From Aequorivita soesokkakensis (GTDB taxonomy: Bacteria; Bacteroidota; Bacteroidia; Flavobacteriales; Flavobacteriaceae): a stretch of DNA of 45,388 bases. The notes beneath the pieces are model-generated. The model did not search any database and was not told the origin of the DNA. It saw only the letters and a list, made by a program, of their open reading frames with translations. Both the position numbers and the translations under genes were made by a program. Positions 430-3,055 of the stretch are shown piece after piece (the first letter of the stretch is position 1; each line of letters opens with the position of its first letter). The stretch is from NCBI RefSeq assembly GCF_001641085.1, contig NZ_LXIE01000022.1:1-45388 (forward strand). The letters run 5' to 3'.

Positions 430-877
430 ACCACAAAGGCACAGAGGGCACGAAGAAAGAAAATTAAATAATGACCGAAAACGAAATTTCTTCAAAAATA
501 ATAGGTGCGAGTATTGAGGTTCATAAACAACTAGGGCCTGGTTTGTTAGAAAGCACTTACGAAATGTGTTTAGGTCACGAATTAAAATTATTGGGCTTGG
601 ATGTTAAACAACAAATTCCACTTCCAGTAATTTACAAAGATATCAAGCTTAATGCTGGTTATCGAATCGATATGATTGTGGAAAACAAAGTAATTGTTGA
701 AATAAAATCAGTTGATTCTTTGGCGCCTATCCATACAGCACAATTATTAACTTACTTAAAATTGAAAGATTTAAAACTCGGACTTTTAATCAACTTTAAC
801 GAAGTAAAGGTTATTGATGGCCTAAAAAGAATTATAAATGGCAAACTATAACTTTGTGGCCTTTGTGTCTCTGTGGT
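430..877 (+). mobile_element. Candidate GxxExxY cassette bounded by 26-nt inverted repeats (copy 1)
   Basis: The left arm is 430-455 and the right arm 852-877. The reverse complement of the right arm matches the left arm at 21 of 26 positions, and four of the five differences are G/A. Each arm is made of units near NNCACAAAG (9+8+9 nt). The only gene inside fills the space completely: its ATG is 15 nt after the left arm and its stop codon ends at 851, one base before the right arm. I see no target-site duplication that I would trust. The mobile nature is inferred from this layout and from related gene-less palindromes elsewhere in the window. Confidence 0.5.
471..851 (+). CDS. GxxExxY protein, PD-(D/E)XK nuclease-like (copy 1)
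   Basis: 126 residues, the standard length of the GxxExxY family. The name motif is G24-L-L-E27-S-T-Y30. A nuclease-like core follows: D67 in GYRIDMIV, then E77-I-K79 in VIVEIKS, then Q91 in TAQLLTYLK. This reproduces the D...ExK...Q pattern of the PD-(D/E)XK fold to which the family is assigned. The cellular role of the family is not established. The gene sits exactly between two inverted-repeat arms and has a second copy at 1863-2243 with about 60% identical residues by direct gap-free count (76 of 126). It may act on the flanking repeats or on other DNA ends; that is inference. Confidence 0.85.
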
Positions 878-1676: not shown

Positions 1677-1823
1677 ACCACAGAGGACACAATGGTTGCA
1701 CAAAGTTCACAAAGCTTTCATTGTTTTTTTTCCTTTCTAATTTAAACACGAGTAAATAAGGTTTTCTTAAAATTGACTGAATATACTTTGTGCTCTTTGA
1801 GCCTTCTTGGTGTTCTTTGTGTC
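1677..1823. repeat. Gene-less NNCACAAAG inverted-repeat element, 38-nt arms
   Basis: The left arm (1677-1714) and right arm (1786-1823) are each 38 nt and have the same internal layout of 9+9+11+9 nt, with every block ending in AAG, GAG or ATG. About 70 AT-rich bases separate them and hold no open frame of note. The element lies between lptB (ends 1657) and the second GxxExxY cassette (from 1836), so two related elements are almost back to back. Confidence 0.6.
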
Positions 1824-1835
1824 TATGCTTTTTTT

Positions 1836-2328
1836 ACCACAAAGATCACAAAGGTTTTAAATTCACAATGTTCCGTTTATAACTCTTTTAATACCGTGCT
1901 TTAACAGACTCACATTAAAATTTATCAGAAGCCCTAACTTAAAATCCCCAAGTCTTAAATATGTAAGGGTCTGTGCTAAATGTACGTCGTTTAATGCTTC
2001 CACACTTTTTATTTCAATAACAACCTTATTTTCAACTAATATGTCGATTCTATAACCTATCTCCAATTTCACTTCCTGGAATATAAGTGGCATAGGCTTT
2101 TGTTTTTCAACAATTAGGCCTTCTTTCATTAACTTATAAAAAAGACATTCTTGATAAGCAGATTCCAACAAACCAGGACCAAGTGCCTTGTGGACTTCTA
2201 GGGAACATCCTATAATCTTATTGGCTATTTGATTTTCAGTCATAATAAACACATTTAACTTTTATTTTGAATCACAAAGTACAGATATTACTTTGTGTCC
2301 TTTGTGCCTACTTAGTGATCTTTGTGTT
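1836..2328 (-). mobile_element. Candidate GxxExxY cassette, 38-nt upstream arm (copy 2)
   Basis: Read on the minus strand, the upstream arm is 2291-2328 (38 nt, blocks of 9+9+11+9) and the downstream arm is 1836-1854 (19 nt, two blocks). The enclosed gene is the GxxExxY gene 1863-2243. The upstream arm overlaps the 3' end of the phosphatidylserine synthase gene: its last codons and its stop (2312-2314) are made of repeat sequence. The arms match the 38-nt class seen at 1677-1823 and 7440-7520. Confidence 0.5.
1863..2243 (-). CDS. GxxExxY protein, PD-(D/E)XK nuclease-like (copy 2)
   Basis: 126 residues when started at the ATG at 2241-2243, which gives MTENQIANK and aligns with copy 1 from the first residue. 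An in-frame GTG three codons upstream (2252) is possible but less likely. GPGLLESAY carries the GxxExxY motif (G24, E27, Y30). The nuclease-like residues D67, E77, K79 and Q91 are all kept. The hydrophobic end KLGLLINFN is almost identical in both copies. Enclosed by NNCACAAAG repeat arms. Orientation is opposite to copy 1, and only lptB plus one gene-less element separate them. Function unknown. Confidence 0.85.
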   Translation of the reverse strand: MTENQIANKIIGCSLEVHKALGPGLLESAYQECLFYKLMKEGLIVEKQKPMPLIFQEVKLEIGYRIDILVENKVVIEIKSVEALNDVHLAQTLTYLRLGDFKLGLLINFNVSLLKHGIKRVINGTL

Positions 2329-3055
2329 TAAACAGAGAAAGCAATATATAAAGAAGAATTATAAAGGGGATTGCTAAAAACTTCAAGAGTACTAAAAGCA
2401 CAACACAAAGTATCAAAAATACATAGCGGACGGCGTTGCTTTTAAAATCCCACGTTTTGAATTTTAATGCGAAGAGCGGAATTTCGGCATTCAGCAAGAT
2501 GCAGCTTAGTACTGTCATTCCTATCAAAAACCATTGGTTAAGGATAATGGTTTCCGCCAATTCAGAATACTGAAATTGTAAAATTAAAGGTAAACTTAAA
2601 ATAAGAAGTGTATTTGCAGGAGTTGGAAGACCAATGAAACCCGACGTTTGGCGTGTATCCACATTAAATTTTGCCAAACGGTAGGCAGAGGCAATTACAA
2701 TCAGCAAGCCAATAAGAGGTAGATAATTTTTAAAACTTATATTCCACCCCTCCAACGAAAAGGTTTCTGTAAGTGTTTGCATTTGATGGAAATAGGACAG
2801 ATTAAACAATTGAAACATTACAATTCCCGGCGCTACCCCACTGGTAATAACATCTGCCAAGGAATCCAGCTGCAGTCCCACTTCACTTTGGGCTTTTAAT
2901 AATCTTGCCGCAAGCCCATCAAAAAAGTCAAAGAAAATTCCGAGGAAAACAAAGAAAGATGCTGTTATCAAATCGCCAGAAACCGCAAAAAGTATAGCCA
3001 CACAACCACAAAGGATGTTTAGGGAGGTGATGATGTTTGGTATTTGTTTTATCAT
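2312..3055 (-). CDS. pssA: CDP-diacylglycerol--serine O-phosphatidyltransferase
   Basis: Makes phosphatidylserine from CDP-diacylglycerol and serine, the first step towards phosphatidylethanolamine, in the inner membrane. From the ATG at 3055 the protein is 247 residues. The CDP-alcohol phosphotransferase motif is complete: D43-x2-D46-G47-x2-A50-R51-x8-G60-x3-D64-x3-D68. Several hydrophobic segments follow (for example LPLIGLLIVIA and YVFLILCVVLLVLL). A TTG at 3070 is in frame, but ATG at 3055 (MIKQIPN) is the better start. The last residues (KHKDH) and the stop codon are encoded by the arm of the neighbouring repeat element, so the native C-terminus may have been changed by it. Confidence 0.9.
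   Translation of the reverse strand: MIKQIPNIITSLNILCGCVAILFAVSGDLITASFFVFLGIFFDFFDGLAARLLKAQSEVGLQLDSLADVITSGVAPGIVMFQLFNLSYFHQMQTLTETFSLEGWNISFKNYLPLIGLLIVIASAYRLAKFNVDTRQTSGFIGLPTPANTLLILSLPLILQFQYSELAETIILNQWFLIGMTVLSCILLNAEIPLFALKFKTWDFKSNAVRYVFLILCVVLLVLLKFLAIPFIILLYILLSLFKHKDH

Follow-up and report, generated by a model that had tools for sequence, protein, structure and literature searches.

The locus considered here raises the question of whether a small nuclease gene and the palindromic repeats around it form a single mobile system. It lies in a stretch of 45,388 nucleotides (nt) from Aequorivita soesokkakensis (contig NZ_LXIE01000022.1 of assembly GCF_001641085.1; hereafter the window), which corresponds to contig C22 in a genome of 3.19 Mb and 51 contigs (99.77% complete; G000 in our set). 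A gene for a protein of the GxxExxY family is enclosed there by two inverted arms, a layout in which the initial annotation, made from the sequence alone, had seen an autonomous element with non-autonomous offspring. Our comparison of this cassette with its relatives suggests that it belongs to a miniature mobile DNA system of a kind not yet described, in which the most variable feature between genomes is the palindromes and not the gene.

Inverted arms around GxxExxY genes

The coordinates and the layout of the cassette, including the gap of 15 nt between the left arm and the ATG at position 471, were as first described, with the right arm directly 3' of the stop codon (TAA, 849-851). The two 26-nt arms are imperfect inverted repeats, complementary at 21 of 26 positions (Table 1). 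Their 22-nt core has five matches in the window at up to three mismatches, against 0.01 expected from shuffling, and the ends of the cassette RNA are paired in its predicted fold (z = -5.57). The window's genome contains three GxxExxY genes, namely, two in the window and one on contig C28, the latter with a full palindrome on each side.

The protein matched TIGR04256 (E = 6.6e-45, 152.2 bits, curated cutoff 35) and PF13366 (E = 3.1e-43, 147.3 bits, curated cutoff 22). Its PD-(D/E)XK active site is intact, and the catalytic residues E27, D67, E77, and K79 were invariant in 21 and in 62 sequences. The AlphaFold model (pLDDT 95.8) predicts a fold similar to that of Cas4. Sequence searches found no solved relatives at E <= 1 and no PHROG phage families at E <= 0.01. 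The family is common in the phylum, with matches above the cutoff in 120 of 247 sampled genomes, and it was found in 26 of the 28 genomes of the genus, with at most 7 matches per genome and many copies broken.

To compare the flanks of these genes, we used a motif-free procedure in which the reference level was that of 95% of the control open reading frames (ORFs) from the same loci. Inverted flanks above this level were observed for 45 of the 48 testable genes of the genus, which included all subfamilies, for 25 of 28 genes from the wider phylum, and for 45 of 75 genes from all phyla. The genus set covers nearly all GxxExxY places in the 28 genomes, minus fragments. For the phylum set, the top match was taken from each of 29 of the 120 genomes with a match, and the all-phyla set holds the 80 loci nearest to the window protein, so that both are biased to good matches by the way in which they were selected. 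Fragments (fewer than 100 profile positions), identical proteins, copies other than the best at a locus, and genes with less than 150 nt of flank were left out, which kept 48 genes from 69 genus loci, 28 of 29, and 75 of 80, respectively. Arms that are equally common next to unrelated genes, a pattern named beforehand as one that would speak against a coupled system, were not observed, as none of 160 control ORFs carried arm units on both sides. By eye, arms were recognized in Planctomycetes (L248 and L257), Alphaproteobacteria (L208, L219, and L237), Betaproteobacteria (L196 and L259), Chloroflexota (L230), and Neomarinimicrobiota (L255), and in several phyla, GxxExxY genes have neighboring hairpin repeats of the CACAGAG/CGCAAAG/CACGAAG type.

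An arm is a run of units of 7 to 10 nt, such as CACAGAGG. The protein of the window belongs to clade A, whose copies have arms that either resemble those of the window or are a GC-rich variant of them; in intact copies, the 22-nt core ends 10 to 19 nt before the start codon (at 74 nt in one copy) and on the other side lies 4 to 7 nt after the stop codon. The other subfamilies have different arms of the same design, as judged by eye. The expectation that arms are conserved with the gene was therefore borne out in that arms accompany the gene, but not as a single sequence, since each subfamily has its own. Arm type tracks the protein and not the host genome. This is illustrated by paralogues within one genome, which had common arms in none of the 38 pairs below 65% protein identity and in all 3 pairs above it. 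In the genus, arms were common to 78% of 59 close pairs versus 2.6% of 969 others, and among all 151 genes, to 35.5% of 512 close pairs versus 5.8% of 10672; the difference was reached in 0 of 2,000 permutations in either case. Arm similarity also climbed with protein identity across the 151 genes (non-orthologous pairs from different genomes), with a Spearman coefficient of 0.36 versus 0.28 for the wrong-orientation control, and part of this correlation is thus due to composition.

Dispersed palindromes and sites that change between species

Gene-less palindromes with the same arms had been announced, in the plural, for the rest of the window. One clear case was found there, between two glycosyltransferase-like genes, whereas the number for the whole genome is nine. 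These nine, recognized by eye at the places of core matches, are dispersed between genes, and several start at or close to the stop codon of the preceding gene. The arm core matched the genome 19 times at up to three mismatches, versus 3 times for a reversed control pattern. In eight of the nine, a short loop is framed by inner ends that carry ACC; the palindrome in the window has ACC at the outer ends, as does the gene cassette. The RNA folds of four palindromes gave z values from -4.9 to -10.7. Across the genus, the gene-less palindromes of the different arm types are intergenic, and the number of type-A arm matches ranged from 0 to 44 per genome, against 0 for the reversed pattern in each of the 28 genomes. 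A scan of the window with Rfam gave no family at or above its gathering score. When six palindrome loci were searched permissively, all matches fell on L012; these were to microRNA, leader, and CsrC families, far below the gathering scores, and were rejected as hairpin artifacts.

The cassette itself is a unit of homology bounded by its arms. The clade-A cassette occupies four genomic sites in the 28 genomes, and the similarity of 13 copies at the three other sites to the window is confined to the stretch from arm to arm; in one of the 13, it starts at the inner end of the left arm (L081, which lacks its downstream end, is not among them). The empty sites that the initial annotation anticipated do exist. 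At the window site, which was readable in 23 genomes, the cassette was present in 6, a remnant of the left arm in 1, and no cassette in 16. Of these six genes, two contain frameshifts and a third is deleted internally. The term "autonomous element" did not hold up, as the gene is no high-copy transposon, with clade A at four sites and many of the copies in the genus broken.

Palindromes at one and the same site differed between species. We followed three sites, readable in 25, 27, and 27 of the 28 genomes, and assigned palindrome types by eye. Site 1 held type A1 in 8 genomes, A2 in 5, H in 3, and C in 4 and was empty in 5; in 4 of these 5, the neighboring stop and start codons overlap as TAATG. 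Three genomes (G004, G005, and G024) have a longer stretch between the flanks of site 1 and were labeled by the palindrome at its end. Site 2, from which the rearranged G022 was excluded, showed type A in 11 genomes, an unrelated GCAGTTTGCAGT palindrome in 8, a GxxExxY cassette with H arms in 4, type C in 1, and an ordinary hairpin in 2, and it was empty in 1. Among these four cassettes, the gene is open only in G001, two are interrupted by stops or a frameshift, and one is internally deleted. The unrelated palindrome in eight genomes at site 2 (L321-L326, L328, and L340) is GCAGTTTGCAGTTGCAGTATTCAGT-like and differs from the GxxExxY arms. Site 3 contained A1 in 4 genomes, A2 in 5, a terminator-like hairpin in 9, no hairpin in 7, and other arrangements in 2. 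On trees built from the sites' own flanks, the minimum number of changes was 9 at site 1 and 11 at site 2 when A1 and A2 were treated as one type, and 12 at each of the two sites when they were kept apart; these minima are rough because the flank trees are weakly resolved. Different types were also found between closely similar flanks, as in G000 and G011 (91.8% identity, A1 versus C) and in G018 and G021 (92.5% identity, A1 versus GCAGTTTGCAGT).

The window site is bordered by a small conserved gene on one side and by lptB (TIGR04406, E = 1e-110) on the other. The latter is flanked by two different cassettes, since the gene of subfamily B, with its degenerate arms, follows about 200 nt past lptB (region 1640-2340 of the window). 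In other species (L160 and L165), the spacer upstream of lptB carries inverted arms, CACGAATTCACGAAT and ATTCGTGTATTCGTGG, that look like those of subfamily G, without a GxxExxY gene. Most of the window (6006-45215) resembles a polysaccharide cluster, and 5 of 8 scanned proteins, encoded between 6006 and 44392, matched glycosyltransferase, sugar dehydrogenase, or polysaccharide kinase families.

Table 1. Features of the window and arm types of the other GxxExxY subfamilies
Feature	Position	Strand	Sequence	Basis
Clade-A cassette, left arm, with ACC at outer end	430-455	+	ACCACAAAGGCACAGAGGGCACGAAG	
GxxExxY gene, 126 amino acids, predicted PD-(D/E)XK nuclease fold, clade A	471-851	+		TIGR04256, PF13366, AlphaFold model
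Right arm of the clade-A cassette	852-877	-	reverse complement ACCACAGAGACACAAAGGCCACAAAG	
Degenerate subfamily-B arms, downstream side of the second GxxExxY gene	1677-1853			by eye
Second GxxExxY gene, subfamily B	1863-2252	-		TIGR04256 (E = 1e-42), tree placement
Degenerate subfamily-B arms, upstream side of the second GxxExxY gene	2285-2332			by eye
Gene-less palindrome, window-type arms, ACC at outer ends, 13-nt loop	12346-12410			core matches, RNA fold (z = -7.85)
Subfamily B arms			ACCACAAAGGACACAATGG	by eye
Subfamily C arms, 10-nt period			e.g., CACAGAGTTTCACAGAG	by eye
Subfamily D arms			CTGCGATAATCTGCG	by eye
Subfamily E arms			CCGAATTTATCCGAATT	by eye
Subfamily F arms			GCGGATTTCGCGGATT	by eye
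Subfamily G arms			CCACGAATACACGAATG	by eye
Subfamily H arms			TCGCAAAGGCGCAAAG	by eye

A nuclease proposed to act on its palindromes, and other explanations

Judging from sequence comparison, these loci probably, if not by any means assuredly, represent a REPIN-like system of enzyme plus palindrome, in which the GxxExxY nuclease acts on its cognate palindromes. A PD-(D/E)XK nuclease would be encoded between arms that it recognizes, a recognition that we infer from the co-divergence of arms and protein. Two inverted, gene-free arms fold into a long hairpin, and the nuclease would cut or nick such cognate hairpins or cruciforms. Repair or rejoining could then copy or move the palindrome to other intergenic sites, including those that already hold the hairpin of another family. 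A wider version of this proposal, possible but doubtful, would regard GxxExxY proteins as pan-bacterial palindrome-homing enzymes: each nuclease would cut intergenic hairpins, repair from resident copies would install the arm type of that nuclease, and rival families would overwrite each other at common intergenic sites. In this version, the four-helix-bundle proteins would provide another counterpart, unrelated to the first and with an arm code of their own.

Several observations weigh against the proposed nuclease-palindrome system. Arm recognition, cleavage, protein-driven spread, and mobilization are all inferred from comparative evidence. The resolution of the flank trees is poor, the typing of palindromes was done by eye, and no clean target-site duplication was seen by eye at the empty sites. 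Homologues without such flanks had been put forward beforehand as evidence to the contrary; most GxxExxY genes are flanked, but 3 of 48 in the genus, 3 of 28 in the phylum, and 30 of 75 in the all-phyla set did not exceed the control level, and one control ORF of the last set reached a value of 53. When flanks of different GxxExxY genes were paired at random as the null, a strict one that includes pairs with common arm types, only 17 of 48, 15 of 28, and 34 of 75 genes were above 95%. Unit pairs in the wrong orientation occurred in the upstream and downstream flanks of 5 and 7 of 48, 3 and 3 of 28, and 13 and 16 of 75 genes, respectively. Foldseek found nothing at or below an E value of 0.001 (the lowest was 0.004), and in the test of nonsynonymous versus synonymous substitution (dN/dS), dS was near saturation, with 27 of 66 pairs passing the filter.

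The relation between palindrome number and resident gene belongs to the same side of the balance. Outside cassettes, the number of type-A arms showed no significant excess where a clade-A gene was present (P = 0.14, 15 versus 13 genomes). The corresponding test of H arms against the H gene gave P = 0.008 (5 versus 23 genomes) with cassette arms included in the count, and 16 to 17 H-arm matches each occur in three genomes that lack an H gene. G022 has 44 type-A arm matches and no GxxExxY gene that we could find, and G004 has 28 without a clade-A gene. Loss of the gene after the spread, or maintenance of the palindromes by something else, would explain G022. A strict dependence of the palindromes on the gene was weakly supported for both A and H arms and was set aside. 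Furthermore, palindromes and terminator-like hairpins occupy the same places; a use of hairpins by the host probably plays a part, and selection for a hairpin could account for part of the pattern.

The strongest of the other explanations, which we nevertheless consider unlikely, is that the gene is a passenger: hairpins would be spread or exchanged by general recombination or by another enzyme, and GxxExxY would have lodged between two halves, where its insertion is tolerated. The palindromes of G022 and G004 and the unclear dependence of type-A number on the gene agree with it, as do the genes that have a complete palindrome on either side (L008, its orthologue L038, and L035). A passenger would not be expected, however, to be accompanied by the arms of its own subfamily wherever different genomes carry it at non-orthologous sites, and its association with arms recurs in other phyla; the window's genome, moreover, has no match to an HUH transposase.

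Less probable still is a role of the arms as RNA, either as a panhandle or as hairpins that regulate or terminate transcription, with the protein as an autoregulating nuclease, for instance in defense or regulation. The paired ends of the cassette RNA and the stable folds of the four palindromes would fit such a role, as would the position of palindromes after stop codons and at sites in common with terminator-like hairpins. It leaves the dispersed gene-less copies and the family switches at one site unexplained, and PADLOC returned only weak Cas4 matches (best E = 4.6e-4). An RNA-level role can be compatible with the nuclease-palindrome system.

It is very improbable that these are classical REPINs moved by a RAYT, an HUH Y1 transposase, with the nuclease incidental. 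The inverted-doublet layout is the same, and Y1 transposase matches occur in 19 of the 28 genomes, but none was found at E <= 0.001 in G000, G001, G002, G013, G016, and G017, all of which have type-A arm matches (G013, G016, and G017 are only 69 to 89% complete). As this list includes the window's genome, searched with PF01797, a RAYT is disfavored there as the mobilizer. Chance or composition deserves almost no credence: the units are simple and repetitive and the wrong-orientation control climbs weakly with protein identity, but the shuffling, reversed-pattern (0 in 28 genomes versus up to 44), and ORF controls exclude chance as the source of the arms as such.

Comparison with known systems

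In the open-access literature, we found no described role for GxxExxY and no paper that ties it to palindromes, and searches with the arm strings, "PDDEXK_3", and TIGR04256 returned no papers, although absence from that literature is no proof. A passage of PMC8934634 places a GxxExxY gene next to a reverse transcriptase. The protein shares its predicted fold with Cas4 and RecB-like nucleases and with Hjc resolvases. It also has the D, ExK, and QxxxY residues in common with those enzymes; GxxExxY differs from them in being a protein of 126 amino acids encoded inside its own palindrome arms. With regard to a miniature inverted-repeat transposable element and its autonomous transposon, the clade-A cassette was present at four sites in the 28 genomes, and no clean duplication was seen by eye at the empty sites.

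Two families of short repeats are comparable in part. CGTC-tagged REPs, described in passages of PMC3733652 as palindromic, present in Bacteroidetes among others, and without a dedicated transposase found, differ from the present repeats, which have a partner gene and lack a constant CGTC tag (3 of the 9 palindromes of the window's genome contain CGTC or its complement somewhere). The TAACTGA repeats of Beggiatoaceae are, according to passages of PMC4679880, short intergenic units found in several phyla, and the author proposes a repeat-binding protein as their possible mobile part. Their unit is a different one and is direct, not inverted, and the main text of that paper contains none of the terms nuclease, palindrom, four helix, S23, and GxxExxY.

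Genes for four-helix-bundle proteins (TIGR02436), which we had taken as a control, had inverted arms of short units above the genus control level in 37 of 44 copies, orthologous ones included. A unit pair of the CRCNRA[GT] type was found in none of the 44, so that the layout is common to this unrelated protein and GxxExxY and the arm code is not. Examples of the four-helix-bundle code are TAGTATTGAGTATTGAG and GGACAAAAGGACAAAAGGAC (L358, L359, and L360 in the window's genome; L264-L293 and L361-L366).

The closest parallel is RAYT/REPIN, for which PMC3116915, PMC3733652, and PMC8266576 describe an enzyme gene flanked by palindromic units, dispersed inverted doublets, and a unit that co-evolves with the enzyme. 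The initial annotation had proposed the same logic with a different enzyme, and the comparison bears this out. In both cases, an enzyme gene present once per kind lies between palindromic units, gene-less inverted doublets that can form hairpins are dispersed outside genes, and the repeat co-diverges with the enzyme. In contrast, the enzyme here is of the PD-(D/E)XK type and not an HUH tyrosine transposase, one site switches palindrome family between species, and the arms are runs of 7- to 10-nt units without a GTAG tag (GTAG or CTAC occurs in 0 of the 9 gene-less palindromes of the window's genome and in 9 of 96 gene flanks of 60 nt in the genus). REPs usually number more than 100 per genome, according to PMC2817692, compared with the 0 to 44 arm matches observed here. 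Since a feature that defines REPtrons was tested for and not found, we place the GxxExxY system in a new category, one that functions in the manner of a REPtron. The coupling of gene and palindrome gives both GxxExxY and the hairpin repeats a testable function. If the proposal is correct, a REPIN-like system with an unrelated nuclease is added to those known, such a genome lifestyle arose more than once, and the subfamilies offer natural enzyme-site pairs whose specificity diverged many times.
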